From the NCBI RefSeq assembly GCF_003431825.1, contig NZ_CP020083.1, positions 744,001 through 808,000 of the forward strand: DNA of 64,000 bases, written 5' to 3'. Shown piece by piece: positions 15,855-34,800 of this stretch. The position numbers and the translations under genes were made by a program. The notes below the pieces were generated by a model, which saw nothing but the letters and a program-made list of their open reading frames with translations, was not told where the DNA came from and did not search any database. This DNA is from Blastomonas fulva. Its GTDB lineage: Bacteria > Pseudomonadota > Alphaproteobacteria > Sphingomonadales > Sphingomonadaceae. Every line of letters starts with the position of its first letter. Position 1 is the first letter of the stretch.

Positions 15855-18221
15855 GCGCTGGGCGATCGTGTTCCGGCTCAGCGTGCCGTGGCCGAAGGCA
15901 ATCGCCTGGCCCAGCGCCGCGATCCGCACGGGAACGGCCTTGCTGGCCGGAGTTTTCGAGGTGCGATCGTGGTGCGACAGTGCGATCAGCGGGTTGAGCT
16001 CGGGATAATAGCCCACGATCGTCCCCGAAGGCAGATCGAACGGCACCACCTCCAGATTGTCGATGCGACGATCATGCCCGTCCTCGGCATCGCCCAGCAG
16101 CGATATCCGCTGCCCCGCGACCAGGCCTGCGGCGGCGATGTCTTGCGGGTTGATCAGCACGACATCGCGCGTCCCCTCGATCCCGCGCAGCCGGTCGCTA
16201 TAGCCATAGATGGTGGTGTTGAACTGGTCGTTGGAGCGGACCGTGACCAGCCGGTAGCGCCCCGGCATGTCTTCCATATCGGTCGCAGCGAGCATCTGCG
16301 GCGCGGTGAACACCGCCTTGCCGCTGTCGGTCTTCCAGATGCGCTCGCGCGCGCTGTTGCCCCGATAGAAGCCGCCGGGCTCGAACATCCGGGCGTTCAT
16401 GTCGTGGAACTGCTCGTGATAGGTCTCGGCGATCAGGTCGCGGATCAGGGCGTAATCGCCGGTCCAAGCATCCCAGCGCACCTTGGGATTGGTCTTGAGG
16501 GGATTGGCCTCGAGCGTCGCCTTGGCGATACCGGCGACGATCGCGGTCTCGGACATCAGATGTTCGCTGGCGGGAGTGCGATGGCCCAGCGACCCATGGA
16601 TATGGCTGAAGCTGTCCTCGATCGTCACGGTCTGCGGGCCGGACGCCTGGATGTCTTCCTCGCTGCGCCCGAGACACGGGAGCAGATAGGCGGTGCGGCC
16701 GTTGAACAGATGGTTGCGGTTGAGCTTGGTGGCGATCTGCACCGTGAGCTGCAGCTGGCCCCAGGCGGGCTCGACCCGGCCCTGATCGGGAATGGCGCGC
16801 AGGAAGTTGCCGCCCAGCCCGATGAACGCCTTGGCGCTGCCGTCGAGCACCGCCTCGCACACCTCGACCGTGGTCATTCCGGTGTCGCGCGGCGGCTCGA
16901 AGCCGAACTGCTCGGCAAGCTTGTCGAGCGGCACCAGCTCGGGCTTTTCGGAAATGCCCACGGTGCGCTGGCCCTGGACGTTGGAATGCCCGCGCACCGG
17001 GCAGATGCCTGCGCCCTTGCGCCCGATATGCCCGCGCATCAGCAGCAGGTTGACCAGCATCGCGATGTTCTCGAAGCCATGGACGTGCTGGGTGAGGCCC
17101 ATGCCATAGACTCCAATGACCCGCTCGGCCCCCAGATAGACGCGGCCCGCCTCCTCGATATCGGCGCGGCTCAGACCCGATTCCTGCTCGATCCGCTCCC
17201 AGGATGTCGCATCGGCCCTGGCGCGGAAGGCGTCGAAGCCGGTGCAGTGTTGGGCGATGAAATCATGGTCGATCACCGTCTCGCCCAGCGCATCGTCCTG
17301 CGCGAATACATATTTGCACAGCCCCATGATCGCGGCGATATCGCCACCGGCGCGGACCTGCAGATACTGGCAGCTCAGATCGGTGTCGCTGCCGGTCAGC
17401 ATCTGGCCGACGCGCTGCGGGTTGGTGAAGCTGAGCAGACCCTTTTCCCGGATCGGGTTGAAGGTCACGATCCGGCAGCCGCGCTCGACCGCCTTTTGCA
17501 GCGGGTGCAGAAAGCGCGGGCTATTGGTGCCGGTGTTCTGCCCGAAGAAGAAGATCGCGTCGCATTCCTCGAAATCCTGGAGCACGCAGGTGCCGACCGG
17601 CGACCCGATCAGCTCGTTGAGCGTCACCGAGGTCGTCTCGTGGCACATGTTGGAGCTGTCGGGCAGGTTGTTGTGGCCATAGAGGCGCGCGAACAGCGAA
17701 TAGAGGTACGAGGTCTCCAGGCTCGCGCGGCCCGATGCGTAGAACACCGCCGATTTGGGATCGATGCTCCTGAGCTCGGCGCCGATCGCGGTGAACGCCT
17801 CGTCCCAGCTGCATTCGACATAATGGTCGCTCGCCGCATCGAAGCGCATGGGATGGGTCAGGCGCCCGACATGCTCGAGATCATGGTCGCTCCAGCCGCG
17901 CAGCTCGCTCACCGTGTGCTCGGCGAAGAATTCGGGGGGGCAGCGGTGGCTGGTCAGCTCCCAGAGCGTCGCCTTCGCGCCGTTTTCGCAGAATTCGAAT
18001 GCATGCGGGTGCTTGGGCTTGCCCCAGGCGCAGCTGGTGCACATGAAGCCGCCGGTCTTGTTCTGGGTCGCCAGCGTCGCCAGCGCGCCGGGGGACGACA
18101 TTTCGCGCGCCATGGTCTGCACCATCCCACGCATCGAGCCCCAGCCGCCGGTGGATCCGTCATAGGAAACGGTATCGGGATGCTCGTCGGTGCCATTGTC
18201 GGGGCTGGTGTCGGTCGTCAT
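15825..18221 (-). CDS. FdhF/YdeP-family molybdopterin oxidoreductase
   Basis: A 798-residue molybdopterin-dependent oxidoreductase resembling formate dehydrogenase alpha subunits of the YdeP branch. A short cysteine motif GGFMCTSCAWGKPK (Cys61, Cys64) sits near the N-terminus. The molybdopterin domains follow, including SNMCHETTSVTLNELIG and the MGLTQHVHGFENI region. A C-terminal dinucleotide-binding domain contains RSNDQFNTTIYGYSDR. There is no Tat or other signal, so it is cytoplasmic. E. coli YdeP is linked to acid resistance, and true formate dehydrogenase activity is not established for this group. No partner FdhD gene is next to it. It ends inside the convergent small oxidase gene. Confidence 0.88.
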   Translation of the reverse strand: MTTDTSPDNGTDEHPDTVSYDGSTGGWGSMRGMVQTMAREMSSPGALATLATQNKTGGFMCTSCAWGKPKHPHAFEFCENGAKATLWELTSHRCPPEFFAEHTVSELRGWSDHDLEHVGRLTHPMRFDAASDHYVECSWDEAFTAIGAELRSIDPKSAVFYASGRASLETSYLYSLFARLYGHNNLPDSSNMCHETTSVTLNELIGSPVGTCVLQDFEECDAIFFFGQNTGTNSPRFLHPLQKAVERGCRIVTFNPIREKGLLSFTNPQRVGQMLTGSDTDLSCQYLQVRAGGDIAAIMGLCKYVFAQDDALGETVIDHDFIAQHCTGFDAFRARADATSWERIEQESGLSRADIEEAGRVYLGAERVIGVYGMGLTQHVHGFENIAMLVNLLLMRGHIGRKGAGICPVRGHSNVQGQRTVGISEKPELVPLDKLAEQFGFEPPRDTGMTTVEVCEAVLDGSAKAFIGLGGNFLRAIPDQGRVEPAWGQLQLTVQIATKLNRNHLFNGRTAYLLPCLGRSEEDIQASGPQTVTIEDSFSHIHGSLGHRTPASEHLMSETAIVAGIAKATLEANPLKTNPKVRWDAWTGDYALIRDLIAETYHEQFHDMNARMFEPGGFYRGNSARERIWKTDSGKAVFTAPQMLAATDMEDMPGRYRLVTVRSNDQFNTTIYGYSDRLRGIEGTRDVVLINPQDIAAAGLVAGQRISLLGDAEDGHDRRIDNLEVVPFDLPSGTIVGYYPELNPLIALSHHDRTSKTPASKAVPVRIAALGQAIAFGHGTLSRNTIAQRSAGGENEDR

Positions 18222-18332
18222 GGCCGGGTCCTTTTCGGGAGGTCCCGTAACTTAAGCCCCAGGTGCCGATGGGTTCCCTTTCGACACAACGCTTTACCCC
18301 GAAACGTCAGCGCAACCTGGCGATCGGAAACG

Positions 18333-18368
18333 GCAAGGCCCCGGACGGTTGCACCGCCGGGGCCTTGC
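18333..18368 (-). terminator. Hairpin terminator behind katG
   Basis: The perfect 12-base arms GCAAGGCCCCGG and its complement flank a 12-base loop. The hairpin sits 24 bases after the katG stop and before the promoter region of the oxidoreductase gene, so it most likely ends katG transcription. The T-rich tail is better on the plus strand (GTTTT) than on the minus strand. Confidence 0.75.
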
Positions 18369-18391
18369 GTTTTGGCGCGTCGGCCGCGCGC

Positions 18392-20743
<2,352 letters not shown>

Positions 20744-20786: not shown

Positions 20787-21863
20787 ATGGATATCAGTCG
20801 CAGGCATCTGACCCGGCTCGCACTTGGTGCAGGTGCGCTGTCACTGCTGACCGGCGTTGTGCCGGGCTGGCTGATCCACGCTGCCACGGCGGCGAGCCCC
20901 GCGCCCGACCCGCTGGCGCTGGTCGACGGCGAACTGCGCGAAGCTGCGCGCGCGATGCTGGCGCAGACCTTCCCGCCGATCAGCCGCGAGACGCTACCCG
21001 CGGTGCGCGCATCCTGGGTGCCGCCGCCGCTATTGAGCGCGCCTGCGCCCTCCGTGACGGTACGGCAGGTCCCCGGCCCGCCGGGCGCGCCTGCCGTGGC
21101 GGTCGAGCTGATCGGAGCGCGCCCTGACTCCACCCCGCGCCCGGCGATCCTGCACATCCATGGCGGCGGCATGATCTCGGGCCGCGCGCGCAACATGACT
21201 TCGTTCAGCCAGACACTGGCGGCGGAATTCGACGCGGTGGTGGTCAATGTCGATTATCGGTTGGCACCCGAAACCCCGTTTCCCGGCCCGGTGCTCGACA
21301 ATTTCGCCGCGTTCGAATGGATGGTCGCCAACGCTGGCGAACTGGGAATCGACCCGCGGCGCATCGCCATCATGGGCGAGAGCGCAGGCGGCGGGCTGGC
21401 CGCGATGGTGGCGCAGATGGCGCGCGATTCGCGCACCGTTCAACCGTGCCTGCTGGTCATGCTCTATCCGATGCTCGACGACCGCACCGGCAGCGCCCGC
21501 ATGGTCCCGCCGCATATCGGAACGATCGGCTGGTCGGCCGAGGCCAACCGTTTTGGCTGGTCGAGCTTTCTGGGTGTTCCGGCAGGATCGGACAGCGTGC
21601 CGGCAGGCAGCGTGCCTGCGCGGCTCATCGATCTTGCGGGCTTTCCGCCCAGCTTCATCGGCGTGGGCACGCTCGACCTGTTCATCGACGAGGACCTGGA
21701 ATTCGGGCGCAGGCTGATCGCATCGGGCGTGCCGACGCAAATGCACGTCAGCCCCGGCGCCTATCACGCCTTCGATTTCGTGGTGCCCGAAGCGCGCATC
21801 GCGCGCGAGTTCACCCAGGCCTGGAAGTCGAGCCTGCACACCGCCTTCGGCTCGCAGGCCTGA
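20787..21863 (+). CDS. Exported HSL-family esterase
   Basis: A 358-residue alpha/beta hydrolase of the hormone-sensitive-lipase family. The N-terminus SRRHLTRLALGAGALSLL looks like a Tat-type signal, so export is likely. The oxyanion motif HGGG is at 125-128. The triad is Ser199 (GESAGG), Asp297 (VGTLDLFID) and His327 (AYHAFDF), so it should be active on short-chain esters. AAGGA lies 8 bases before the ATG. It is clearly paralogous to the gene at 23155, sharing blocks such as LYPMLDDRTG and IGTIGW. Unlike its neighbours I see no copy of the shared operator in front of it. It is the first of five esterases in this block. Confidence 0.9.
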   Translation: MDISRRHLTRLALGAGALSLLTGVVPGWLIHAATAASPAPDPLALVDGELREAARAMLAQTFPPISRETLPAVRASWVPPPLLSAPAPSVTVRQVPGPPGAPAVAVELIGARPDSTPRPAILHIHGGGMISGRARNMTSFSQTLAAEFDAVVVNVDYRLAPETPFPGPVLDNFAAFEWMVANAGELGIDPRRIAIMGESAGGGLAAMVAQMARDSRTVQPCLLVMLYPMLDDRTGSARMVPPHIGTIGWSAEANRFGWSSFLGVPAGSDSVPAGSVPARLIDLAGFPPSFIGVGTLDLFIDEDLEFGRRLIASGVPTQMHVSPGAYHAFDFVVPEARIAREFTQAWKSSLHTAFGSQA

Positions 21864-21867
21864 TCGC

Positions 21868-22980
21868 CTACTGCCCCAGATTGCGATCGAAGAATTTGAG
21901 GATCACGTCATAGGCCTGGCGTGATTCGGGCATGTCGGGCTTGTAGAAAAAGCCGTGGAACAGCCCTTCCCAGACATGCAGATCGGCATCGACCCCCAGA
22001 GCCACCATCCGGCTGTGGGTATTGACCGCCGAGGATAGCTCGAACCCGCGGGTGCCGGTGATGATCAGCGTTGGCGGAAATTGGCGCAGCACTTCGTCGG
22101 AAGAGCCCGGCGCCACCAGCGGATCAGTGGGATCGGAGCCCGCGAAATAGGGCAAAGCGGTCCAGGGGGCATCGCCGTTTGGCGGCCATTGCGGGGCGGG
22201 CCGCGCCTCGCCCACCGCTGCGGTCATGTAATCAGCGTCGCCGCCAAAGCCGTTGGCCGAGGTGGTGAGCCCCGCGCACAGGATGCCGACCGCGCCGGGT
22301 CGCGGAAGACCGTGCTTCTGGAACCATGCGGTGGCCATTCCGGTGAGCATTCCGCCCGCCGAACAGCCGTAGATGCCGATATTGGCAGCGGGATAGGTCT
22401 TGAGCAGCTCGCGATAGACCTGTGCGACATCCTCGCTCGCCGCAGGGAACTTGTGTTCGGGCCCCTGACGGTAATCCACCGAGACCACACGGATTTCGCC
22501 CAATGTCGCAACGGGGATCGACTCCAGTTCGGCGCAGGCGGGAAAGCAGCCCATGAAGCCGCCACCGTGCAAGTTGATCAGCACCCGCCGCGCGTTCCTC
22601 TTCGCGATTCCGGCCTTGGGCGCATAGTCGAACACGCGCACTCCGGCGATGCGGCGTTCGGTCAAGGTGTAGGCAAACATCGCCTTGGCCTCGGCGAGAT
22701 AGGGCTCCATGAACACCGGAACGCCATTGTTCTGCTGCACCTGAACCGGGTCCTGCATCGCCTTGAGATGGTCGGTGAGATACTGCTTCGCCTCGGGGCT
22801 GAGCATCGAGGACACCGGCACCGCCATCGCCGGGACGTGCACCGTGCCATCATCGTCGATCTTCACGGGTGGAGATGGCGCGGTCTGCGCCTGTGCTGAC
22901 GGGAGCGACGCCGCTGCGAGCAGCAGGACTGCCAGCCCCCGCACTGTACGGCGCATCTGCGCGATTGCTTTGACCATCAT
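21868..22980 (-). CDS. Exported HSL-like alpha/beta hydrolase with altered acid position
   Basis: A 370-residue hydrolase with a signal peptide (cleavage near AQAQ, about residue 32). HGGG is at 139-142 and the nucleophile Ser207 lies in the variant motif GCSAGG. The catalytic His342 is in GLFHGFF. The usual catalytic Asp sits in a segment normally read GTRDF; here it is GTRGFE, with Gly312 in the Asp position and Glu314 two residues on. The enzyme may therefore use Glu or be weakened. It is transcribed divergently from the esterase at 23155. The 170 bases between them hold two operator-like boxes. It overlaps nothing, and ends 4 bases from the previous gene's stop. Confidence 0.85.
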   Translation of the reverse strand: MMVKAIAQMRRTVRGLAVLLLAAASLPSAQAQTAPSPPVKIDDDGTVHVPAMAVPVSSMLSPEAKQYLTDHLKAMQDPVQVQQNNGVPVFMEPYLAEAKAMFAYTLTERRIAGVRVFDYAPKAGIAKRNARRVLINLHGGGFMGCFPACAELESIPVATLGEIRVVSVDYRQGPEHKFPAASEDVAQVYRELLKTYPAANIGIYGCSAGGMLTGMATAWFQKHGLPRPGAVGILCAGLTTSANGFGGDADYMTAAVGEARPAPQWPPNGDAPWTALPYFAGSDPTDPLVAPGSSDEVLRQFPPTLIITGTRGFELSSAVNTHSRMVALGVDADLHVWEGLFHGFFYKPDMPESRQAYDVILKFFDRNLGQ

Positions 22981-23055
22981 TTCGCTTCTCCCGATCGCCT
23001 CCAGGCCGCTTGCAACGCTGCCCGGACCCTTGCCTTTTTATCTGGCGGCAAGGAT

Positions 23056-23075
23056 GTGCGTAATCGATTGCAATC
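23056..23075. promoter_or_regulatory. LacI-type operator candidate, box 1
   Basis: A box with core AATCGATT and left half (read on the minus strand) TCGATTACGCAC, an 11/12 match to the half-site TCGATTRCGCAA. It lies between the divergent esterases at 21868 and 23155. Its centre is 33 bases from that of box 2, about three helical turns. Confidence 0.6.
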
Positions 23076-23088
23076 TTCGCTGCAAGAT

Positions 23089-23108
23089 GTATGAAAACGA
23101 TTACACAA
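23089..23108. promoter_or_regulatory. LacI-type operator candidate, box 2
   Basis: The right half reads ACGATTACACAA, close to the half-site TCGATTRCGCAA seen in the other boxes; the left half is poor. It is 47 bases before the GTG start of the esterase at 23155, suited to repression of that promoter. Confidence 0.5.
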
Positions 23109-23154
23109 AGGGTGCGCCTCGCAAGAAGGGCGACTCAGCGAGGGGGTTTTGAAG

Positions 23155-24264
23155 GTGACAATCACGCGCAGATCGTTCGGCATCGCGGCCCTGGGCGCAG
23201 CGGTCATGCCTGCGCTGTTCAACGCCAAGGGTGCTGCGGCGCTCGCCGCGACACCTGCGATCCCTGCCGGCACTGCCCCTGCAAAGATCGATCCGCTGAT
23301 GCTGGTCGACCCCGAATTGCGCGAGGGCGCCGAGCTCATCCTGTCGCGCCCGCTGCCCGATCCGCTCGATCACAAGGCCATATTGGCGATGCGCCAAGGC
23401 GTCCCGCCACCCGCCGCGCCACTGCCCGCACCTGCCCCCGCCATCGAGATGCGCCGCATCCCCGGCACGAAGGGCCAGCCCGAGGTCAGCATCGCGGTGA
23501 TCGGCGCCAGGCGCGATGGCGGCAACCGCCCCGCGGTGCTGCACATCCATGGCGGCGGCTTCATCCTGGGCCGGATGCAGGACACGTTCGTCGCATCGCA
23601 GCAGCTGGCCGAAGAGCTCGACTGCGTGGTGGTTGAGGTCGAATACCGGCTGTCGCCCGAAACCGTGTTTCCCGGCCCGCTCGAGGATTGCCACACCGCA
23701 TTGGTCTGGCTGCACGCCAATGCCGCCGAACTGGGCGTGAATCCCAACTCGATCGCGGTAATGGGCGAAAGCGCAGGCGGCGGCATGGCCGCGATGCTGG
23801 CGATCGCCGCGCGCGACCGCGGCAGCGTCCCGCTGTGCTATCAGGTGCTGATCTATCCCATGCTCGACGACCGCACCGGCACCACCCGCCGCGTGCCGCC
23901 GTTCATCGGCACCATTGGCTGGAACGAGGCAGGCAACGCGGTTGGATGGAGCAGCCTGATGGGGGTGCCCGCCGGAAGCGATCGCGTGCCGAGCGGCGCG
24001 GTGCCTGCGCGCACCAGCGATCTGTCCGGGCTGCCGCCGACCTTTATCGGCGTCGGCGCGATCGACCTGTTCGTCGATGAAAACATCGCTTATGCGCAAA
24101 GGCTGATCGCGCACGCCGTGCCGACCCAGCTGCTGGTGGTTCCGGGCGCCTATCATGGCTTTGATTTCATCGCCCCCAGATCCCGCGCATCACGCACCTT
24201 CATCGCCTCGTGGAAACTCGCGCTGGGCGCGGCTTTCCGCGACCGCGCCGCCGCATCGGGCTGA
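23155..24264 (+). CDS. Exported HSL-family esterase, paralogue of the 20787 gene
   Basis: A 369-residue esterase with a Tat-like signal (TRRSFGIAALGAAVMPALF). The HGGG oxyanion motif is followed by Ser206 in GESAGG. The Asp is in VGAIDLFVDE and the His in AYHGFDF, so the triad is complete. The GTG at 23155 is preferred over the TTG at 23149 because the purine run GAGGGGG is then 8 bases away. It resembles the gene at 20787 over its whole length, indicating duplication within the locus. The two operator-like boxes upstream suggest control together with the divergent hydrolase. The TonB receptor starts 77 bases downstream behind its own box. Confidence 0.9.
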   Translation: MTITRRSFGIAALGAAVMPALFNAKGAAALAATPAIPAGTAPAKIDPLMLVDPELREGAELILSRPLPDPLDHKAILAMRQGVPPPAAPLPAPAPAIEMRRIPGTKGQPEVSIAVIGARRDGGNRPAVLHIHGGGFILGRMQDTFVASQQLAEELDCVVVEVEYRLSPETVFPGPLEDCHTALVWLHANAAELGVNPNSIAVMGESAGGGMAAMLAIAARDRGSVPLCYQVLIYPMLDDRTGTTRRVPPFIGTIGWNEAGNAVGWSSLMGVPAGSDRVPSGAVPARTSDLSGLPPTFIGVGAIDLFVDENIAYAQRLIAHAVPTQLLVVPGAYHGFDFIAPRSRASRTFIASWKLALGAAFRDRAAASG

Positions 24265-24296
24265 GGCGCCACAATAAAGAGCCAGTTTGACACTAT

Positions 24297-24316
24297 TTGC
24301 ACAATCGATTACGCAA
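24297..24316. promoter_or_regulatory. LacI-type operator candidate upstream of the TonB receptor
   Basis: The best copy of the motif is a 20-base palindrome fitting TTGCRYAATCGATTRYGCAA, with both half-sites conserved (TCGATTACGCAA forward, TCGATTGTGCAA reverse). It is 25 bases before the receptor ATG, so it would overlap the promoter or early transcript. Confidence 0.7.
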
Positions 24317-24340
24317 AAACCAGAACCTAGGGAGGATCTC

Positions 24341-26491
24341 ATGAAGGCCAGTTTCCGTTTCCGTGCCGTGCGCACCCGGCTTGCAGGCGCCGCAGCGGCT
24401 GCGGCGCTGTTTGCCGTCCCGGCGCATGCGCAAGACAGCGCATCGCAGGACGATGATGCCCCGGCGGGCGGCGAGATCGTCGTCACCGCCAGCAAGACCG
24501 GCGCGGTCACGCTCGACAAGGTGCCTTATGCCATCCAGGCGTTCGATGGCGGTACGCTCAAGGAACGCAACATCCGCGATGGCTCGGATCTCATCCAACT
24601 GATCCCGGGCGCATCGCAGGCGCAGGAAATCGGCGCGGGCTATCGCATCTTCTCGTTCCGCGGCTCGGGCGCAGGCGGCCCGATCGGCGATGGCCTGATC
24701 GGCTATTATCTCGACGACACCCCGTTCGGCGTGCCCAACAACCAGGCCGCGCCGCCGGTGCAATATTTCGATATCGAACAGGTGGAAGTGCTGCGCGGCC
24801 CCCAGGGCACGCTGTATGGCCTTGGTTCGTCGGCCGGCACGATCATCTATCGCACCAAGAACCCGGACCTGGACCAGGTGACCTATGCCGGCGAGGTCGA
24901 GCTGTCGGGCACGCGATCGGCAGGCGATCCCAATTATCGCGGTGCGGCGGCGTTTTCGGTGCCCATCGTTCCCGGCAAATTGGGCCTGCGGATCAGCGGC
25001 GGCTATGACCGCCGGTCGGGCACTGCCGATATCTTTGCCGGTGCCCCCACCGGTGTCCCGCGCGAGCGCAACGCCAACGACGCCACCGCCAAGGACATCC
25101 AGGCGGTGCTGCTGTGGCAGGCCGATGACAAGACCACGGTGCGCACGCGCGCCTGGTATTTCAGCACCGACCAGAAGTACCTCAACGTCATCAACTCGCT
25201 CGATCCGCCGTTCGCCTCTTTCCAGGGCGATGTCGTCGGCTTCGACCGTCGCCGCGCCTGGTATGCGTCGAACACCATCACCCGCGAGATCGGCGATTTC
25301 ACGCTGACCAACGCGACCTCCTACCAGAAGTCGCTTCCCGGCGGTTTCCAGGTCGGTCTCAACCTCGGCGCGCCGCTGGGCATCGGGGTTCTCGAAAATG
25401 GCGGCGATGCGCGCAACTTCGTCAACGAACTGCGGCTGGCGACCTCGACCCCCGGTCCGTTCAAGGGCGTTGCCGGGATCTTCTACCAGAACGCCCGCAG
25501 CCTCTATACCTTCAACCTGACCTTCCCGGCCTTTGCGCTGAGCGGGCGGACGATCACCAAGACCGAAAACGCGGCGCTGTTCACCGAAGCCAGCTACGAG
25601 CTGTTCGACGGCCTGATCACGCCGCTGGTCGGCCTTCGCTACTTCAAGGACGAGCGCGAATCGGATTCGATCTCGAACGGCGTTGCGGTGGCCAGCCGGG
25701 CCAAGCCCGATGCGCTGACCTGGCGTGCCAACATCGCGATCAATCCGTCGCCCGACTGGATGATGTTCTTCAACGCCGGAACGGGCTTCCGCAGCGGTAT
25801 CCTGCAATCGCAGGCACAGGCCGATGCGGTGATCGCCGATGGCGTGCCCAGCGACATCTCGCTTACGCCGGACAAGTTGCGCAACCTCGAAGTGGGCGTC
25901 AAGGGATCGCTGTTCGATGGCGCACTGCGCGTCGCGGTCAGCCTGTACGACATCAAGTACACCAACATCCAGAGCGCATTCAACACCTCGATCGGCCTGT
26001 CGGCGTTCGCCAATCTGGGCGACGGCAAGGCGCAGGGGATCGATATCGAGGCGACCTGGCGCACGCCGCTGCCCGGCCTCACGATCAACGCCATCGGCAA
26101 CATCAACGATTCCAAGTTCACCCGCGTGCGCCCCGCCTTTGCCGGTGCCGATCCGCGCATCGCCAACGGGCTGAGGTTGCTCAACACGCCCGAGCACAAC
26201 TTCCGCCTGGATGCGAGCTACGAGCGCAAGATCGGCAATGTCGAACTCTTCGCCACCAGTTCGGCCACCTTTATCGGCCGATCGCGGCTGGGCGATGCGG
26301 TGGTCGACGAGATCGATCCGTACGAGCTGTATCAGGCCAGCCTGGGCGTGCGCTTCGACCGCTATGAAGTGCGGCTGTTCGGCGACAACCTGTCCGATCT
26401 GCGCGGACCGACTTCTGCCAACGGCCCGACGCTGCTGGCCGGGCCCCGCCCGCGCACCTTCGGCATCACCTTCCGCGTCAATACCAACTGA
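24341..26491 (+). CDS. TonB-dependent outer-membrane receptor of the esterase/GH68 locus
   Basis: A 716-residue outer-membrane receptor. It has a signal peptide ending AHAQ, a TonB box EIVVTA at about residue 46, then a plug domain with the characteristic QVEVLRGPQGTLYG motif, and a 22-strand-type barrel ending in RTFGITFRV. GGAGG lies 5 bases before the ATG. It takes up a ligand across the outer membrane at the expense of the proton motive force through TonB. Upstream lies the best operator palindrome of the block; downstream is a hairpin and a carboxylesterase. The context (LacI regulator, GH68 enzyme, several esterases) suggests a carbohydrate or ester substrate rather than iron, but the ligand cannot be read from the sequence. 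Confidence 0.92.
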   Translation: MKASFRFRAVRTRLAGAAAAAALFAVPAHAQDSASQDDDAPAGGEIVVTASKTGAVTLDKVPYAIQAFDGGTLKERNIRDGSDLIQLIPGASQAQEIGAGYRIFSFRGSGAGGPIGDGLIGYYLDDTPFGVPNNQAAPPVQYFDIEQVEVLRGPQGTLYGLGSSAGTIIYRTKNPDLDQVTYAGEVELSGTRSAGDPNYRGAAAFSVPIVPGKLGLRISGGYDRRSGTADIFAGAPTGVPRERNANDATAKDIQAVLLWQADDKTTVRTRAWYFSTDQKYLNVINSLDPPFASFQGDVVGFDRRRAWYASNTITREIGDFTLTNATSYQKSLPGGFQVGLNLGAPLGIGVLENGGDARNFVNELRLATSTPGPFKGVAGIFYQNARSLYTFNLTFPAFALSGRTITKTENAALFTEASYELFDGLITPLVGLRYFKDERESDSISNGVAVASRAKPDALTWRANIAINPSPDWMMFFNAGTGFRSGILQSQAQADAVIADGVPSDISLTPDKLRNLEVGVKGSLFDGALRVAVSLYDIKYTNIQSAFNTSIGLSAFANLGDGKAQGIDIEATWRTPLPGLTINAIGNINDSKFTRVRPAFAGADPRIANGLRLLNTPEHNFRLDASYERKIGNVELFATSSATFIGRSRLGDAVVDEIDPYELYQASLGVRFDRYEVRLFGDNLSDLRGPTSANGPTLLAGPRPRTFGITFRVNTN

Positions 26492-26500
26492 CCGGCTACG

Positions 26501-26535
26501 GGCGGCGTGCTTCCGGCGACGGACGGCACGCCGCC
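26501..26535 (+). terminator. Hairpin between receptor and carboxylesterase
   Basis: The 10-base arms GGCGGCGTGC and GCACGCCGCC are separated by 15 bases. The hairpin starts 9 bases after the receptor stop and ends 25 bases before the esterase ATG. There is no U-tract, so it may lower readthrough or protect receptor mRNA rather than end it fully. Confidence 0.55.
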
Positions 26536-26560
26536 TGCCGCGTCGCTGGAGGCCCATGCC

Positions 26561-28270
26561 ATGCCCAAGCCGGAGGAAGCCAGCCTCGCATCGCCCACCG
26601 ATCCCGATCGGCGCGGGATCATGACGGGGGCTGCGCTGGCCACCGGCCTTGCGCTCTGTCCTGCATCCGCCAGCCTGGCCGATGCCAAGACGCCTGCCCC
26701 CAACCCCGCCAATCCCGAAATCAGCACCGACCCTGCGCAGGTCACCGCCAGAACCGCGAGCGGGCGGCTGCGCGGCTATCGCAAGGGGCGGATCACGATC
26801 TTCAAGGGCGTGCCCTATGCCGCGCCGACAGGCGGCGCCAACCGCTTTCGCCCGCCCCGGCCGGTAGCCCCCTGGCACGGTGTGCGCTCGGCGCTGCATT
26901 ACGGCCCGATCGCTCCGCAGGACAAGGGCACCGGACGGCTCAACGACGAAGAGGCCTTTATCTTCCGCTGGAACGACGCGGTCGAGGACGAGGACTGCCT
27001 GCGCCTCAACATCTGGACGCCCGGGCTTTACGATGCGCGTCGCCCGGTGCTGGTCTGGCTGCACGGCGGCGGTTTTGCCGCGGGATCGGGGCATGACATC
27101 CCCGCCTTTGACGGCGAGAACGTCGCCCGCACCGGTGATGCCGTGGTGGTCACGCTCAACCACCGGCTCAACCTGCTGGGCTTTCTCGATCTGTCGTCCT
27201 GGGGCGAGGGCTTTGAAGATTCAGGCAATGTCGGCATGCTCGACATCGTCGCGGCGCTCGCCTGGGTGCGCGACAACATCGCGCGCTTCGGCGGCGATCC
27301 CGACCGCGTCACCATTTTCGGCCAGTCGGGCGGCGGTGCCAAGGTCACCGCGCTGATGGCGATGCCCGCCGCGCGCGGGCTGTTCCACCGTGCGGCGATC
27401 CTCAGCGGATCGTTCGCGATGTTCAACACGCCGGATCGCAGCGCACAGCTTTCGGCCTTGCTGCTGGCAGAGCTGGGGATTGCCAAGGGCGATATCGCGG
27501 CGCTGCAGGCCCTGCCCTATCCGACGCTGCGCGCGGCTGCCGAACGCGTTACGGCGAAGATCAACCCCGGGTTTGACGGCTTCATCGATGTGCGCCGCAT
27601 CGCGCAGATGCTGAACTTCGCGCCCGTGGTCGATGGCCGCAGCATCCTGCCGACACCCGGCGCGCCCGGCGTGCCGCTGACCGATCCCAAGGTGCCGCTG
27701 ATCATCGGCTCCACGCTCAACGAGTTCGTCACCGGGATCAACCAGCCGGAGGTCGAGGCGATGACCGAGCAGGTCTTGCACGCGCGCGCCGAACGCTTCG
27801 CGCCCGGACGCGGCGATGCGGTCGTGCGCGCCTTTAGCGCCGTGACGCCCGACGCCGCCCCCTTCGACCTGTGGAGCCGGATCGCCACCGCGCCGATCCG
27901 GCAGGCGGTGATCGATCAGGCCAAGCGCCGGATCGCCGCCGACGCCGCCCCCACCTATCTGTACTGGTTCACTTGGGCGACCCCGATCCTGGAGGGGCGG
28001 CCGCGGTCGTTCCACTGCCTCGACATCCCCTTCTGGTTCGACAATGCCGCCGCCTGCGCGTCGATGACTGGCGGCGGGAGCGCCGCACGCGCGCTGGCCA
28101 AGCAGATGTCGCAGGCGCTGGTCGCCTTCGCCGCCACCGGCGTGCCCAGCGCCAGCGCGCTGCCCGTCTGGCTGCCGGTGACAGCCGGGGCGTTTCCATC
28201 GCTGCGGCTCGACACCGGTCCTCGCATGATCGCGGAAATCGACGCGGCCGAGCGGGCCAGCCTGAAGTAA
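26561..28270 (+). CDS. Exported type-B carboxylesterase
   Basis: A 569-residue carboxylesterase of the para-nitrobenzyl-esterase / cholinesterase-like family. DRRGIMTGAALATGLALC near the N-terminus resembles a Tat or general export signal. Family blocks include FKGVPYAAP, EDCLRLNIWTP and WLHGGGFAAGSG. The nucleophile Ser256 is in GQSGGG instead of the common GESAGG. The acid is the Glu of GSTLNEF and the base the His of SFHCLDIPFWF, so the triad is complete. The ATG at 26561 has GGAGG 8 bases upstream; an earlier in-frame start at 26507 is inside the hairpin. It probably shares the receptor transcript. It could remove acyl groups from the imported or surface-bound substrate. Confidence 0.9.
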   Translation: MPKPEEASLASPTDPDRRGIMTGAALATGLALCPASASLADAKTPAPNPANPEISTDPAQVTARTASGRLRGYRKGRITIFKGVPYAAPTGGANRFRPPRPVAPWHGVRSALHYGPIAPQDKGTGRLNDEEAFIFRWNDAVEDEDCLRLNIWTPGLYDARRPVLVWLHGGGFAAGSGHDIPAFDGENVARTGDAVVVTLNHRLNLLGFLDLSSWGEGFEDSGNVGMLDIVAALAWVRDNIARFGGDPDRVTIFGQSGGGAKVTALMAMPAARGLFHRAAILSGSFAMFNTPDRSAQLSALLLAELGIAKGDIAALQALPYPTLRAAAERVTAKINPGFDGFIDVRRIAQMLNFAPVVDGRSILPTPGAPGVPLTDPKVPLIIGSTLNEFVTGINQPEVEAMTEQVLHARAERFAPGRGDAVVRAFSAVTPDAAPFDLWSRIATAPIRQAVIDQAKRRIAADAAPTYLYWFTWATPILEGRPRSFHCLDIPFWFDNAAACASMTGGGSAARALAKQMSQALVAFAATGVPSASALPVWLPVTAGAFPSLRLDTGPRMIAEIDAAERASLK

Positions 28271-28370
28271 TGGTATATCGGCCATTGGCCCGATGCGCAG
28301 CCGCGTGTAGGAAGTGTGCGGGGTGTCAGCAGCCTCTGCCCGCACCGCACGGGCGGATACGAAGGATCCG

Positions 28371-29372
28371 ATGGTCAGCGTCAAGAATCTGAAGGAATTT
28401 TCCGAACTCGCCGGGGTTTCCACGGCGACCGCCTCGCGCGCGCTGACCGGATCGGGCCGCGTCAGCGAGGAGACCCGCAAGCGCATTGCCGCGCTTGCCG
28501 AGAAATTGGGCTATCAGCCCAACATCGCCGCGCGCAACCTGCGCACCCAGCGCACCATGACCATCGGCGTGCTGGTTCCGCTGGGCCACGAGGCGCTGCA
28601 GCACCTCTCCGACCCGTTCTTCAACACCATGACCGGCTTTCTGGCCGATGCCTTCGCTGAGAACGGCTATGACATGCTGCTCTCGCGCGTGCTGCCGCGC
28701 AACGACCGCTGGATGGACCGCTTCATCGGCAGCGGGCGGGTCGATGGCATCGTCGTGGTGGGGCAATCGGACCAGTTCCATGTCATCGAGACGGTATCCC
28801 GGCGCTACCAGCCGATGGTGGTGTGGGGCGGGCATTCGCCCGATCAGCACCATTGCTCGATCGGCTCGGACAACCGTCTGGGCGGGCGCATGGCGACGAT
28901 GCATCTGGTCGAGCGCGGCTGCACCCGAATTGCCTATGCCGGGCCGATCAAGGGATCCGAATTCGGCGAGCGTGCCGATGGCGCACGCGCCGCGCTTATC
29001 GACGCGGGACTGGCACCGCTCGAGGAAATCCCGACCCATTTCGAGCCCGACGCTGCTTATGCCGATGTCCGCGAAAAGCTCGCGGCGCTGCCGCACATGC
29101 CCGACGGGATCGTCGCGGGATCGGATGTCACCGCGATCAGCGTCATCCGCGCGCTGCGCGATCTGGGCCAGCGCGTGCCCGAAGACGTCAGGGTGATCGG
29201 CTATGACGGCCTGCCGATCGGAGAGCATATGGCGCCGCCGCTCAGCACCATCGACCAGCAGCTGCGCCATGGCGCGCAACTGCTCACCGAGACGCTGTTC
29301 CGGCGGATTGCGGGCGAGGACACCGTCTCGCAGCAGATCGAACCGCAGCTGATCATCCGCGGATCGACCTGA
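28371..29372 (+). CDS. LacI-family transcriptional regulator
   Basis: A 333-residue repressor of the LacI/GalR family. The N-terminal helix-turn-helix with hinge is LKEFSELAGVSTATASRAL and ends at YQPNIAARNL, the part that inserts into a palindromic operator. Residues from about 65 form the sugar-binding periplasmic-binding-protein-like core (TIGVLVPLG, GIVAGSDVTAI, DVRVIGYDGLPI). GAAGGA precedes the ATG. It lies in the middle of the esterase/GH68 block and is the only regulator there, so it is the natural candidate for binding the AATCGATT-type palindromes at 23056, 23089, 24297 and 30761. There is no copy in front of its own gene. It ends 15 bases from the convergent GH68 gene. Confidence 0.93.
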   Translation: MVSVKNLKEFSELAGVSTATASRALTGSGRVSEETRKRIAALAEKLGYQPNIAARNLRTQRTMTIGVLVPLGHEALQHLSDPFFNTMTGFLADAFAENGYDMLLSRVLPRNDRWMDRFIGSGRVDGIVVVGQSDQFHVIETVSRRYQPMVVWGGHSPDQHHCSIGSDNRLGGRMATMHLVERGCTRIAYAGPIKGSEFGERADGARAALIDAGLAPLEEIPTHFEPDAAYADVREKLAALPHMPDGIVAGSDVTAISVIRALRDLGQRVPEDVRVIGYDGLPIGEHMAPPLSTIDQQLRHGAQLLTETLFRRIAGEDTVSQQIEPQLIIRGST

Positions 29373-29387
29373 GACCCTGCGCTGGCG

Positions 29388-30563
29388 TCAGCCGACCACG
29401 CGCGCCGTCGCGCCGTCGAGCGCGATGCGAAAGAACGGCGCGGGATAACCCGCAAAATGCGCGCGGCGCTGCGCGGCGTCGACAATCAGGCCCATGTCGC
29501 GGATGCCGGGGAAGTCGGCGAACCCGATCACCTGCAGGTCGTCCAGCACCCACCAGCTGTATTCCTGCGCGGGGCATTCGGGCGGGGTGCCTGCCACCAG
29601 CCCGGTGCCGTTGAGCAGCGTGAACGGACCCAATGGCGAAGGCGCCACCGCGCCATACAGCCCGGTGGGCGCCACAATGTTCTCGGCAAAGACCTTCGCC
29701 TGGGTCGACCAGAACAGATAGTAGTTCCCGCCACGCTGGCGCATGTGCGGGCGTTCGAGCTCGTTGTTGACGCCCGCCGCACTGAGCACCGGGGGCAGCA
29801 TCTGCCACGCGCCGCCGGCGTCGTCCTGCCGCGCGACCCCGATATTGCCCGTCCACCGCGAGGACGAACGCGCGCACGATCCGGTAAAAAACAGGTAGGC
29901 GCCGCCCGTGGCAGCATCGCGGAAAAAGCCGGGATCGCGAAAGCCCAGAATTTCGCCGCCGCGGCCTTCGGTCTGGTTGGCGACCTGATAGTCGATCCCG
30001 TCGGCGACCATGGTTTCCTGCGGTGCCGACCAGTCGGACAGGATGATCCCGCCATCGCTGGCGGCAAAACTGCAGCTCGCCTCGAACAGGCGCTGCTCCA
30101 GGCTGGGCCCGGGCCCGTTGCGACGCCCGGCGGCGGTGAAGTGGACGGTGAGCCGCGTGCCTGTGTCGTCGAGCACCGCCGATCCCGACCATTCGCGGTC
30201 GCCGGGGGTGAAGCCTTCCGGAAACACCGGCTGATGCAGCGTCCAGCGGCCGTCGCGTTCGCTGGCAAGATAGATGCGCGCAACCATGTGGCGGGAATCG
30301 GGATCGGGCTCGACGGTAGCTGCCAGCACCATCCACAAAGCGGCGCCGTCGAAGCGCGGCAGGCGGCCATCTTCATGCTCGACCGGCCACATGTCCCACA
30401 GATCGAAGCCGGGAACCCGCGCGCTGCTGTCCAGCGCGAAGGCGGGAATGGTGTTGGCAGGGTCGCGCATCAGCGTTGCCAGATCGCCCGCGGTCCAGAC
30501 GGTGGGCGCATCAGATGTTGCAAGCACAACCGCTTCGTCTGTTGTGCCCACGCCGGTTACCAT
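29388..30563 (-). CDS. GH68 fructosyltransferase/invertase (levansucrase family)
   Basis: A 391-residue glycoside hydrolase of family 68. The three catalytic carboxylates are recognisable: nucleophile Asp57 in DLWDMWP, stabiliser Asp210 in FRDP, and acid/base Glu270 in NELERPH. The supporting REWSGSAV motif is at about 123-130. Family 68 enzymes split sucrose and either transfer fructose to build levan/inulin or release it to water. Which applies here cannot be decided. No signal peptide is seen, as in some alphaproteobacterial levansucrases that leave by other routes. The ATG has AAGGGA 8 bases upstream. It is divergent from the esterase at 30866, with an operator-like box between them, and convergent with lacI. 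Confidence 0.88.
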   Translation of the reverse strand: MVTGVGTTDEAVVLATSDAPTVWTAGDLATLMRDPANTIPAFALDSSARVPGFDLWDMWPVEHEDGRLPRFDGAALWMVLAATVEPDPDSRHMVARIYLASERDGRWTLHQPVFPEGFTPGDREWSGSAVLDDTGTRLTVHFTAAGRRNGPGPSLEQRLFEASCSFAASDGGIILSDWSAPQETMVADGIDYQVANQTEGRGGEILGFRDPGFFRDAATGGAYLFFTGSCARSSSRWTGNIGVARQDDAGGAWQMLPPVLSAAGVNNELERPHMRQRGGNYYLFWSTQAKVFAENIVAPTGLYGAVAPSPLGPFTLLNGTGLVAGTPPECPAQEYSWWVLDDLQVIGFADFPGIRDMGLIVDAAQRRAHFAGYPAPFFRIALDGATARVVG

Positions 30564-30865
30564 ATTCCAAATTCCCTTTGCCAGCCGCAGCAGGGGCCTG
30601 CCCCCGCGTAAACGTTACACCATATTCCGCAGGGGATGCCGCCCGGGCACCGCAGTGCAGTCACCTGGAAGCCGCCGCTGCCCCGTCAAAAGGCATATTT
30701 GCAAGACCCTCGCCCCTGGTCCGTCGCCCTTGCGGGCAACGCTTGTCAGCGACCTTAGGCAAGAGCAATCGATTGCGCAATCTTCTCTTTTGTGATCAAG
30801 CGTGCCACGATGATAGCAAGGACGAACCACCCCGATGCCCCGGCATCGATCCGCGGGAGAACGCA
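30564..30865. other. Divergent promoter region between GH68 and esterase genes
   Basis: About 300 bases without a gene. It contains the operator candidate at 30761-30780. Close to the GH68 start, around 30606-30620, it also has a different partly palindromic element with core AACGTT (GTAAACGTTACAC), which resembles generic LacI-family sites. Both could regulate the GH68 gene. Confidence 0.5.
30761..30780. promoter_or_regulatory. LacI-type operator candidate before the esterase at 30866
   Basis: The right half TCGATTGCGCAA fits the half-site TCGATTRCGCAA exactly and the core AATCGATT is complete. The outer left half is not conserved. It lies 86 bases before the esterase ATG and in the shared upstream region of the GH68 gene. 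Confidence 0.6.
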
Positions 30866-31846
30866 ATGCACTGGCAGGTCAACCGCAGGCAGATGCTGCT
30901 GGCGAGTGGAGTGTTGCTGATGAACGTGCCCGCACTCGATGCACGCGAGGCGCTGCAGATCCCGCAGGGCACCGGCCCGCTGCCGCCCGAATGGACCACA
31001 GCGCCATCGATCGCTCTGTGGGATGGCCCGCCGCCCGGTGCCCCCGCCAGCGCGCCGGTCCGATCGGCCACGCTCGATCCGGTGTTCATCACCGGCGTCG
31101 CGCGCGCCGAGATGCGTGTCTTCCGGCCAGAGAAGAGCAATGGCCGCGCAGTGCTGACCATCCCCGGCGGCGCCTATAATTTCGTCTCGATCCGCAACGA
31201 AGGCACCGATGTTGCCCGGGTGCTGACCGCGCTGGGCTATACCGTCTTCGTGCTGGTCTACCGCCTCCCCGGCGAAGGCTGGGCCGAGCGCTGGAATGTG
31301 CCGCTACAGGATGCGCAAAGGGCGATGCGGATCGTCCGCGCGCGTGCGCAGAGCTATGCGATCGATCCGGCCACGGTTGCGGTGCTGGGCTTCTCTGCCG
31401 GGGGGCACCTCGCCGCCTCGCTGATTACCGCGAGCGAGGAACAGGTCTATGCTCCCCGCGACGTGGCGGACAGTCTGGACGCGAGGCCAATGTGCGCGGG
31501 GCTGATCTATCCGGTGATCGCCGCGAGCGCGCCGCACACCCATGGCTTGTCGGCCGAGACGCTGCTGGGCCCGTCGCCCGGAGCTGACCGCATTGCGCTT
31601 CGCTCACCGGCGCTTCATGTCGATGCGGCCACACCGCCCACCTTCCTTGTCCACGCGCTCGACGATACGGCGGTGCCCTATCCCAACAGCGCGCTGTTCA
31701 TGGATGCGATGCTGGCCGCCGGACGCCCGGTCGAAACGCATTATTTCGAGGAAGGCGGGCATGGCTTCGGCATCGGGCCGGCCAATGCCCCCGCAGGGCA
31801 ATGGCCGGCCTTGTTCGATGCGTTTCTCAGGCGGCACGCCGGTTAG
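30866..31846 (+). CDS. Exported alpha/beta hydrolase, acetylxylan-esterase-like
   Basis: A 326-residue hydrolase of the type found in carbohydrate de-esterifying (acetylxylan/BD-FAE-like) enzymes. The N-terminus NRRQMLLASGVLLMNVPAL is a likely export signal. The family motif IPGGAY (about 99-104) forms the oxyanion hole. Ser177 is in GFSAGG, Asp266/267 in HALDDTAVP and His299 in EEGGHGFG. The start has GGGAGA just upstream. It faces away from the GH68 gene, sharing an upstream region with an operator candidate, and ends 10 bases before the convergent autotransporter gene. Together with the other esterases it suggests that the target of this locus carries ester groups. Confidence 0.9.
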   Translation: MHWQVNRRQMLLASGVLLMNVPALDAREALQIPQGTGPLPPEWTTAPSIALWDGPPPGAPASAPVRSATLDPVFITGVARAEMRVFRPEKSNGRAVLTIPGGAYNFVSIRNEGTDVARVLTALGYTVFVLVYRLPGEGWAERWNVPLQDAQRAMRIVRARAQSYAIDPATVAVLGFSAGGHLAASLITASEEQVYAPRDVADSLDARPMCAGLIYPVIAASAPHTHGLSAETLLGPSPGADRIALRSPALHVDAATPPTFLVHALDDTAVPYPNSALFMDAMLAAGRPVETHYFEEGGHGFGIGPANAPAGQWPALFDAFLRRHAG

Positions 31847-31855: not shown

Positions 31856-34800
31856 TTAGAAGCCCACGCGAAGCGAGACCCGGGCGTTGAGGGCAATCTT
31901 CTCATATTGCTCCTCGGCGCCGACTTCGCCCGCCAGCGAAAAGCCGCTCTGGCCGCCGACCAGCCTCAGCCCGCCGATCCACCCGTCGTTGCGCGCATCG
32001 GGGAGCAATGTGAACGCCGCGCCGCCCTTGAAGCGCGCGGTGGTCGCGCCGAGCGAGCCGCCGATGATCTGGCGGCGACCGCCTTCGATCTCGGCACGCA
32101 GCCACACCGCATCCGCGGCCAGGCTGCCGAGGTCATAGCCCGCAACCAGCGTGCCGTTGACCGCGATCTCGTCGCTGCTGCGCTTGTCCACCGTCAGGTT
32201 GAACGCATCGCCGCCGCCGGTCTCGGCAAAGCCGTCCTCGTCGAGCCGGTAATAGTCGATCGAGGCCGAAGGCCGCAGCGCAAAGCGCCTGCCGATCTTC
32301 GCCTCATAGCCCAGCCCCGCCGAGGCGCTGTAGAGCTGGCCCGACCAGGTTCCGCGGGCATTGCGTTCGATCACATTGGTGCCTTGCGCAAAGGCGAAGC
32401 GGCGCGTGCCTTCAAAGTCGATCTGCGCGAACGAACCGCGGGCAAAGGCGCGCAGCGGGCCCCAGTCGCCGCGCCAGTGCGCCGCCAGCTCATACTGGTC
32501 AGACCGCACCTCGTTGCCGGTGTCCTGATCGTCGTTCTTGCCGTTGAGATAGGCGAGCGAGACGCCAAACCTGCCGACATCGCCTGCCTTGATCTCGGCC
32601 CCGCCGGTTGCACCCCAGCCGCTGGTGTCGAATGCGGCGGTGCCCCGGTTGGCCTTTTCGCTGCCCCAGACGGTCTGCTGCAGCCAGAAGCCCCAGCCGC
32701 CCTGGTCGCTATAGGGCGCTGCGGTATCGGTGAGGAACCGCGCGGTCGCGCGCGAGCCCTGGGTCACGGTGGCGAAGGTTCCCCCGGCGTGATCGGGCAG
32801 CATCTGCTGCACCGCGGCGCCCGCCTGCTCGGCATTGGCGATCGACAGGAAGCTGTTTGCCACCTGCGCATCGCTGTCCAGCGCCTTGAACACCGCATCA
32901 TAGGCGCGCGCCTGCGAGGCCGAAAGGCTGAGCTCGGTGGCGGTCTTGCGCTTGATGTCGACCGCAACGGTGCCCGCGGCATCATTGCCCGTCACGCTGG
33001 ACTTGAACAGGAACGGCAGCGCGATGCTGGAGGCGACGAGGTTGGCGCTGCCCGTCAGCCGGCCTGCGGACAGGATCTGGTAGGTCCCTTCCGACTGGCT
33101 GACATTGACCAGGGTCACGCCCAGCCGCGAGCCTGCGCCAAAACTGGCGTCGCCTGCGACGTCGAGCCGGGTGACGGTGCCAGCCTTGCCGTCGATGGTC
33201 ACGCCGAGCATGCCCTGGTCGGTGACCGCGAGCGAGCCGAGCGCCACGGTTCCGGGGCTGGTGATGCCAAGCGATCCGCCCGCAACCGTCACCGCTGCCT
33301 GCCCGGCACCCGCCAGCGTGCCGCGGAACTGCGCGGAGCCAGAGAGCGCGAGCGTGTCGGCGCCGCCGCCCAGGTCCAGCCTGCCGACCAGCGCCGACTT
33401 GCCTGCCAGTTGCACCGTATCGGCGCCGCTGCCGAAGGTCGCATCACCGGTGAGCAGCGCTTCGCCGCTCGCCAGCAACCGGTTGCTGCCCGCACCGAAC
33501 TGCATCGCGCCGGTGATCGTGCCAGCCGACACCTCGAGCAGATCACTGCCCGATCCCAGCCGGATATCGCCGGTAATCGAAGGCTTGCCCGTGGGCGTCG
33601 CCGCGCTCTGGCGGATGGTGGCACCGCTGGTGTTGGCGGCCAGATCGATCGCGATCGCGCGGCCCGCTGCGGGCTTGGCGGCAACCGCGCTGATCGTGCC
33701 GCTGTTCTCGATCGTGCGGAGCGATCCCGACAGGTCGGCGATCGCGACGGCAGAACCCTCGCCCGCTGCGTTGGCGGTGATCCTGCCGCTGTTGGTGATC
33801 CCTGCGAGCGATCCGCCCGCATCGATCACCACCGCGCGCACCTGGTTGGCGGCGACCGAGCCGCCACCCGCCTCGATCGTGCCGGTGTTGCGCAATCCCG
33901 GCACGCTGGCGAGCGCGCCGATGCGGATCGCGGTGGCGTTGCCGCCGTTCGATGCAGCGGAGACCGTGCCGTTGTTGAGAACGCCGCCGGTAATGGTGGT
34001 GGCCTGGCCGAGGCCGCCAATCACCAGACCGTTGCCCGCGACATCCTTGTAGACGCCGCTGCCCAGGATGCGGCCGTTGATCACCAGGCCGTTGCCGGCA
34101 GCCGCGCTGCCGCCCACCGCGCCGATGGCGACCGCGGCGGTCGCCGAGCCGATCTGCACGGCAGCGGCCGAGCCGAACGACGTGATCGTCGCGGTACCTT
34201 CCTTGTCGTCCTCGATCCCGTCCTTGTCCTCATCCTTGTCATCGGGCTTGGTGTTGGGCGGCGGTACATCGAGCAGGATGCCGCCTGCGACCGACCCTGC
34301 CACCTGCAGCGCCGGGCCGCCCTGCAGCAGATCGTCGGCATCGAGCTTGCTGACATCGGCAGGCGGGGTGGCGCTGCGATAGCCGGTGGAGGTGATGCTG
34401 CCCTGCACGGTGAGCGCGCCGCCGATCGGCCCGGTCAGCGCAACACCGATGGCGTTCGCGCCGACAGTCGCGATCGAGCCGGTGAGCGCGACATTGCCGC
34501 TGACCGCACCGGCGCGGATTCCGGCGGAATTGTCGCCGCGCACCGATACCGAGCCGCTGCTGGTCAGCGATCCGGTTAAAGGGCCCTCCAGGCTGATGCC
34601 CGCGCTCGAGTTGCCCTCGATGGTGATGGTGCCAGCGTTGATCACCGATCCGGTGAGCGCGCCCAGGGTGCGGATGCCGAAGCGGTTCTGGCCTTGCGCA
34701 AACGGTCCGTCGAGATCGCCGTCATTGTCGGTGTCGGTCGGCGCAAAGGTCTCGTCGATGGTGATCGTGCCCGAGTTGGTGATGGTCGCGCTGGTCCCCG

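Follow-up and report, generated by a model that had tools for sequence, protein, structure and literature searches.

The gene block at positions 20,787–31,846 of a 64-kb stretch of Blastomonas fulva DNA (contig NZ_CP020083.1; the window below is this whole stretch) probably serves the utilization of esterified (acylated) sucrose under the control of LacI. It comprises a LacI-family regulator, a GH68 enzyme, a TonB-dependent receptor (TBDT) and five esterases, namely three hormone-sensitive lipase (HSL)-like enzymes (E1, E2 and E3), a type-B carboxylesterase (COE) and a BD-FAE-type carbohydrate esterase. This eight-gene content, first listed in a preliminary description of the DNA, was borne out by Pfam matches, translations, sequence motifs, GC content at third codon positions (GC3) and start codons. 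Recurrence, operators, predicted compartments and data on a second locus jointly argue for a single molecule as the common target of the esterases, the receptor and the sucrose enzyme; this molecule would be both an ester and a sucrose derivative.

The first line of evidence is the recurrence of the gene set with one receptor subfamily. A scan of a genome collection with an alignment of 26 receptor sequences yielded 66 loci, comprising 39 alphaproteobacterial loci with a receptor at 38–82% identity (L021–L059; L-numbers are locus labels of the present analysis) and 27 control loci at 26–34% (L060–L086). Gene content was scored by tblastn with the window proteins and neighbour proteins; matches had to reach 40% identity, LacI and the GH68-like class excepted, and the esterase class includes PF04734 ceramidase-like proteins. 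Esterase-class genes occur in 38 of the 39 receptor loci, at least three of them in 35 loci, with a median of five. LacI was found in 32 loci, a sucrose-cleaving enzyme in 33, and a ROK kinase and an MFS protein in 20 each; because of the filter, L053 is counted without its GH68 (39% identity) and L049 without an esterase (E3, 33%). Among the control loci, receptor matches stand alone in 26 and one (L084) has no match, other locus genes being present in none. The set is rearranged across Sphingomonadaceae, Erythrobacteraceae, Caulobacteraceae and Hyphomonas/Kordiimonas-type genomes, with a gene order that varies between the Novosphingobium, Sphingomonas, Erythrobacteraceae, Caulobacteraceae and Hyphomonas/Kordiimonas types. 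The esterases and the GH68, lacI and receptor genes recur together, not independently, and a chance neighbourhood of independent genes is ruled out by this recurrence and the common operator.

A 757-kb plasmid from Novosphingobium sp. EMRT-2 (L205) carries a block of these eight genes in unchanged order and with three operator matches; there the genes are annotated individually under generic names. The receptor gene is also present on the 1.16-Mb Novosphingobium sp. THN1 record NZ_CP028348.1, from a plasmid collection. Found on these two records, the first as a block and the second as a receptor, the locus may be able to move between replicons. The cytochrome oxidase encoded in the window shares 98% identity with its counterpart in Blastomonas sp. 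RAC04. None of the eight other Blastomonas genomes searched has a close relative of the window GH68 (E to 1e-90) or of the receptor (E to 1e-180); each of these has one GH68, at 43–46% identity to that of the window, and the two that were placed in a tree group with the second GH68 of the source genome.

In other loci, GDSL, ceramidase-like and tannase/feruloyl-esterase proteins also belong to the esterase set. The PF04734 (ceramidase_alk) type protein, assigned by Pfam on one member, occurs with an export-like N-terminus in 14 loci (L031, L034, L037, L040, L042 and L051–L059) and has an operator in front in many of them. Clusters of glyoxalase-type dioxygenase and FAD monooxygenase genes, named by eye, occur in five loci (L033, L053, L054, L056 and L059). 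They lack an operator in front, and aromatic catabolism is not included in the regulon.

The second line of evidence is a palindrome, GCAATCGATTGC, the core of a putative LacI-type operator, recognised by reading the intergenic regions. The search pattern RYAAWCGWTTRY was fixed on the window sites and then applied elsewhere. In the window it has three sites, all ahead of block genes, against 0.09 expected, and three were reached in none of 100 shuffles. The 39 receptor loci contain 120 sites, at least one per locus, compared with a simulated expectation of 1–3 and with two sites in the 27 control loci. For all but one of the 120, the distance to the start of a scored gene is at most 500 bp on the upstream side or 150 bp into the gene. 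Counting only sites within 400 bp upstream, an esterase-class gene is preceded by one in 35 of the 39 loci, the receptor in 33 and the sucrose enzyme in 20, and 31 loci have such sites before an esterase-class gene plus the TBDT or the sucrose enzyme. The operator between E2 and E3 is found at the same place in L021–L025 and L046, and L205 has a site at the matching place. Like sux-type loci, the block combines a LacI gene with operators before locus genes at the sequence level, and a putative LacI-type operator is common to its esterases, its receptor and its sucrose enzyme. Recurrence and the common operator support the suggestion of the preliminary description that the substrate is esterified.

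The third line of evidence comes from GH68 loci sampled without regard to the receptor. A search of 246 genomes of the order with the window GH68 gave 48 genes in 46 genomes; all but the window's own, 47 in total, were fetched with their flanks. No esterase-class gene at 40% identity or above was found in 42 of these 47 loci, four of which (L127, L128, L130 and L132) have one at 30–33%. The 42 mostly carry LacI, MFS, GH68 and ROK and look like plain sux (sucrose utilization) loci. The other five (L087, L095, L105, L117 and L121) contain two to five esterase-class genes, and two of them duplicate loci of the receptor set (L087, from Novosphingobium MD-1, repeats L022, and L105 apparently repeats L051). 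Three of the five esterase-bearing loci have the receptor subfamily, compared with one of the 42 others (L127; Fisher p 0.0024).

The source genome itself has a second GH68 locus near 1.67 Mb (L115, L185), with ROK, GH68, an 850-aa receptor and MFS, and with LacI not adjoining. The genomes of all 39 receptor loci, several of them drafts or metagenome-assembled genomes, were searched for GH68, and the positions were compared with the locus coordinates. In the case of the 11 loci that lack both MFS and ROK (L021–L028 and L045–L047), a GH68 outside the locus was found in all 11 genomes. Ten of these second loci, viewed wide, have LacI and MFS in every case, ROK in six and an esterase-class match in none, and the eleventh (L098) has MFS, ROK and LacI. 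The 14 loci with their own GH68 and ROK (L029, L031, L034, L037, L038, L040, L049, L051–L053, L055 and L057–L059) are not accompanied by another GH68 in any of the 14 genomes; this complementarity, 11 of 11 versus none of 14, gives a Fisher p of 2e-7 when kinship is ignored. The ten genomes with an amylosucrase locus or a locus for the GH68-like protein c21 have no GH68. In L033, L054 and L056 the available stretch is without a sucrose enzyme, and a GH68 lies elsewhere in the genome; no GH68 was found for L050, which lies on a short contig. As the preliminary description had noted, no inner-membrane carrier appears among the Pfam matches and translated genes of the block; this absence would be explained by the separate plain sux locus of the same genome, which we infer to serve the block.

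It is conceivable, yet unlikely, that the block is instead a second uptake locus for free sucrose, with the esterases as co-regulated passengers for an unrelated nutrient met in the same habitat, such as xenobiotic or lipid esters. HSL and type-B esterases belong to promiscuous families, the operator is common to plain sux loci, and one 42% homologue of the TBDT stands in an acyl-CoA context. Against this, the window TBDT gives only short matches to the TBDT of the second locus (best 29% over 146 aa), and since the two receptors are unrelated, their ligands probably differ. Moreover, genomes with a block of the dependent type already have a plain locus, and the receptor is accompanied by at least three esterase-class genes in those 35 of 39 loci.

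The sucrose-cleaving enzyme of the 39 receptor loci is exchangeable, being GH68 in 23, an amylosucrase in six and c21 in four. Amylosucrase is a sucrose enzyme, and the L035 protein, the one member compared with solved structures, is closest to 2wpg ('amylosucrase or alpha amylase', 423 bits) and 3cze (sucrose hydrolase, 419 bits). The c21 proteins (about 360–390 aa; L041:4943-6067, L042:17533-18609, L043:4846-5970 and L048:4883-6049) stand in for GH68 in Hyphomonas/Kordiimonas-type loci. The one member scanned matched no Pfam family, and its sequence matches to levansucrases were marginal (best E 0.007). An AlphaFold model built with four sequences (pLDDT 78.5) found GH68 enzymes in all of its 25 best PDB matches, with query-normalised TM scores of 0.55–0.63, followed by GH43 and GH32 folds, and c21 is predicted from this model to have a GH68 fold. 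In a tree of 80 GH68 genes, the label esterase-linked (two or more esterase-class genes, a label that partly reflects the choice of loci) needs five changes, at least two of them forced by well-supported branches; all 11 members of the window GH68 clade carry it, and esterase-linked GH68 genes occupy two or more separate positions in the tree. These data point to sucrose cleavage as the common step of the loci, carried out by exchangeable enzymes, and the resemblance to sux loci of other bacteria pointed out earlier is strengthened by the replacement of GH68 by amylosucrase, the SuxB family.

The predicted compartments of the products were compared with a crude N-terminal hydrophobic-segment test over start regions, whose false-positive rate is shown by the six of 29 LacI proteins that it scored positive. 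Export-like N-termini were found in 13 of 15 E1, 27 of 27 E2, 28 of 33 E3, 13 of 16 COE and 22 of 31 BD-FAE proteins, as well as in 14 of 14 ceramidase-like, 19 of 21 GDSL and four of six tannase proteins. Such a segment is rare in GH68 (5/25), amylosucrase (0/6), c21 (0/4) and ROK (1/20). The esterases thus look mostly exported, as had been predicted, and the sucrose enzymes mostly not; the window GH68 is a proposed cytoplasmic sucrase.

The preliminary description had left the choice between sucrose and fructans open. Sucrose is favoured, and a fructan or fructo-oligosaccharide ester (acetylated levan or inulin), with GH68 as a fructan hydrolase or transferase, is disfavoured and seems improbable. 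The solved relatives of the window GH68 are levansucrases and an inulosucrase. GH68 enzymes of Zymomonas are secreted without a classical signal peptide, so that a missing signal is no proof of a cytoplasmic location. On the other side stand the six loci with amylosucrase in place of GH68, the 20 of 25 GH68 proteins without an export-like N-terminus, and a Pfam scan of ten recurrent neighbour clusters, in which no levanase, inulinase or polysaccharide-degrading family was detected. Slightly less probable still is another sugar conjugate, an acylated glucoside or oligosaccharide to whose use the sucrose enzymes would be accessory: the esterase families do not reveal the acyl acceptor, and relatives of BD-FAE, tannase and PaeX act on many carbohydrates, but amylosucrase is the sole glycoside-hydrolase family in those ten clusters and the sugar-processing step that recurs, in 33 of 39 loci, is the cleavage of sucrose.

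Several observations weigh against the assignment of the block to acylated sucrose. Regarding gene content, LacI was not seen in seven of the 39 loci, L049 has no esterase at 40% identity, and a sucrose enzyme is missing from the available stretch of L054 and L056; some of the 39 loci are contig ends. The PF00756 esterase class looks cytoplasmic, none of its seven members having an export-like N-terminus. As for the operator, neither COE nor amylosucrase has a site within 400 bp upstream in any of the 39 loci, and E1 has none in the window. Of the 42 other GH68 loci, 39 contain the motif too, frequently in two tandem copies 22–24 bp apart. The source genome has 12 sites, nine of them outside the block: two in tandem at the second GH68 locus and seven elsewhere, including sites ahead of zwf-pgl-edd (L179) and ppc (L183) and at the start of sucA (L182), genes named by eye. 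Since the operator occurs outside these loci, another LacI protein may bind it; the source genome has four LacI-domain matches, the block LacI among them. These central-carbon sites resemble the GluR regulon of Caulobacter, as far as the part of the source consulted describes it (PMC4052901), which suggests a GluR-like global regulon in the source genome. Finally, plasmid pTomRC1a of Sphingobium sp. RC1 (L206) carries a receptor homologue (42%) amid AMP-binding, acyl-CoA dehydrogenase, esterase and lipase genes, in surroundings without an annotated sucrose enzyme or an operator match. It was rejected as the same system owing to the acyl-CoA context and the missing operator match, and it indicates that a TBDT at about 40% identity is not always linked to sucrose.

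For a locus dedicated to acylated sucrose, the following mechanism can be proposed, in which the substrate, the acyl group, the enzyme activities, the binding and effector of LacI, and the service by the permease and kinase of the sux locus are all inferred. Acylated sucrose would pass the outer membrane through the TBDT, and the exported esterases would strip its acyl groups in the periplasm, where the retention of several esterase families may reflect differences in acyl position and acyl type. An MFS sucrose permease would move the released sucrose inward and the signal-less GH68 would split it in the cytoplasm, after which a ROK kinase would pass hexose to the Entner–Doudoroff pathway. Here, permease and kinase would come from the plain sux locus near 1.67 Mb. 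LacI would repress the block at its three operators until sucrose or a product is present. A more specific version can be put forward only tentatively, being somewhat less probable than its negation: a regulon dedicated to scavenging sucrose esters with which plants defend themselves (acylsucroses or hydroxycinnamoyl/acetyl sucroses), with intact import by a specific receptor and periplasmic deacylation, assembled more than once around different sucrose enzymes.

The positions of the block genes and putative operators are collected in Table 1.

Table 1. Genes and putative operators of the block, in window coordinates.
Feature	Position	Strand	Basis and remarks
E1, GESAG-type HSL-like esterase (Abhydrolase_3)	20787..21863	+	PF07859 E 7e-51; ATG 20787; GESAG motif; twin-arginine motif SRRHLTRLALG at N-terminus, by eye
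E2, GCSAG-type HSL-like esterase (Abhydrolase_3)	21868..22980	-	PF07859; Sec-like signal peptide by eye
Putative LacI-type operator GTAATCGATTGC	23060..23071	.	Divergent E2/E3 promoter region
E3, GESAG-type HSL-like esterase (Abhydrolase_3)	23149..24264	+	PF07859 E 2e-52; TTG start assumed; twin-arginine motif TRRSFG, by eye
Putative LacI-type operator ACAATCGATTAC	24301..24312	.	28 bp ahead of TBDT start codon
TBDT, TonB-dependent receptor	24341..26491	+	PF00593/PF07715; subfamily alignment
COE, type-B carboxylesterase (COesterase)	26561..28270	+	PF00135 E 7e-86; twin-arginine-like leader by eye
LacI-family regulator	28371..29372	+	PF00356/PF13377
GH68 enzyme	29388..30563	-	PF02435 162.6 bits; signal peptide not visible
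Putative LacI-type operator GCAATCGATTGC	30765..30776	.	Perfect palindrome between GH68 and BD-FAE
BD-FAE-type carbohydrate esterase	30866..31846	+	PF20434 E 5e-21; twin-arginine leader NRRQMLLASG by eye

The five esterases, which the preliminary description had divided into at least three subfamilies, fall into four groups: GESAG HSL-like (E1 and E3), GCSAG HSL-like (E2), type-B carboxylesterase and BD-FAE. Each of the five has a nucleophile-elbow motif. E1–E3 have the HGGG oxyanion motif and the GxSAG elbow (GESAG or GCSAG) of HSL-like (bacterial family IV) enzymes, and they account for three of the nine PF07859 matches of at least 80 bits in the whole 4.12-Mb genome. NCBIfam gave an above-cut-off name to none of the eight block proteins; E2 reaches 366 bits with GCSAG_HSLs (cut-off 410) and BD-FAE 237.6 bits with the PaeX pectin acetylesterase family (cut-off 550). 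Regarding solved structures, E2 is closest to 6qin (PMGL2), E3 to the lipases 7wol and 7b4q and the heroin esterase 1lzk, COE to the carboxylic ester hydrolases 5a2g and 7x8l, and BD-FAE is related to 6a6o and 7dwc. The catalytic Asp/Asp/Glu motifs of the GH68 enzyme (WDMWP, RDP and ELERPH) are kept in an alignment with GH68 structures including 7bj4. The TBDT opens a same-strand row with COE and LacI; a PDB sequence search with it returned siderophore, heme, pesticin and colicin receptors, which give no clue to the ligand.

Two groups of minus-strand genes flank the block. Upstream, at 15,825–20,659, lie genes for a molybdopterin oxidoreductase and for a member of the peroxidase family whose length (755 aa) is like that of a catalase-peroxidase. 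Adjoining the block at 31,856–38,597, and outside the locus, are an autotransporter, a second TonB receptor and a FecR-domain protein.

By analogy, the locus would work like, and belong beside, the Xanthomonas sux locus, to which it adds the esterase set and a different receptor. The sux locus of Xanthomonas campestris, a carbohydrate utilization containing TBDT (CUT) locus, comprises suxR, suxC, suxA and suxB and, according to its authors, varies among aquatic bacteria (PMC1790865, considered in part). The part of this source considered shows a shared logic of LacI-type repressor, TBDT, sucrose-cleaving enzyme and inner-membrane permease. The present block likewise links a TBDT to a carbohydrate-degrading enzyme (GH68), and variant loci have an amylosucrase related to 2wpg and 3cze. 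It differs in its mostly exported esterases, in having GH68 and no amylosucrase (SuxB) in the window, and in the location of the permease and kinase outside the block; an MFS transporter is found in 20 of the 39 related loci and in the second locus. The window TBDT is set apart by comparison with the plain-locus TBDT of the source genome, not with SuxA. The plain Sphingomonadales GH68 sux-like loci (such as L115) have the same operator core and carry GH68, ROK, MFS and usually LacI, but they differ in their TBDT (in the source genome), in their often tandem operators and in the absence of close esterases in 42 of 47.

Polysaccharide utilization loci with carbohydrate esterases offer a further parallel, since the esterases clear decorations before glycoside cleavage, as in Dysgonomonas mossii (PMC8040265, in the part considered). 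Unlike in such loci, the core here is apparently a disaccharide cleaved in the cytoplasm, and none of the ten clusters scanned belongs to a polysaccharide-degrading family. The fumonisin (fum) catabolism locus of Sphingopyxis combines a TBDT and a type-B carboxylesterase for an esterified natural product with another core molecule, and it is not known to include sucrose enzymes. COE is related to the fumonisin B1 esterase structure 8s6d.

The gene combination had been thought undescribed and, among the matches listed from open-licence PMC full text, there is neither an account of it nor a description of a bacterial import or catabolic locus for sucrose esters. Sucrose esters are common plant products. 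If the proposed function is true, the locus would represent an undescribed bacterial way of feeding on esterified, probably plant-made, sugars, extending a known sugar locus to a decorated sugar. It would provide a receptor subfamily with a directly testable ligand and candidate sucrose-deacylating esterases, together with a genetic handle on the use or detoxification of sucrose esters by aquatic and plant-associated bacteria.

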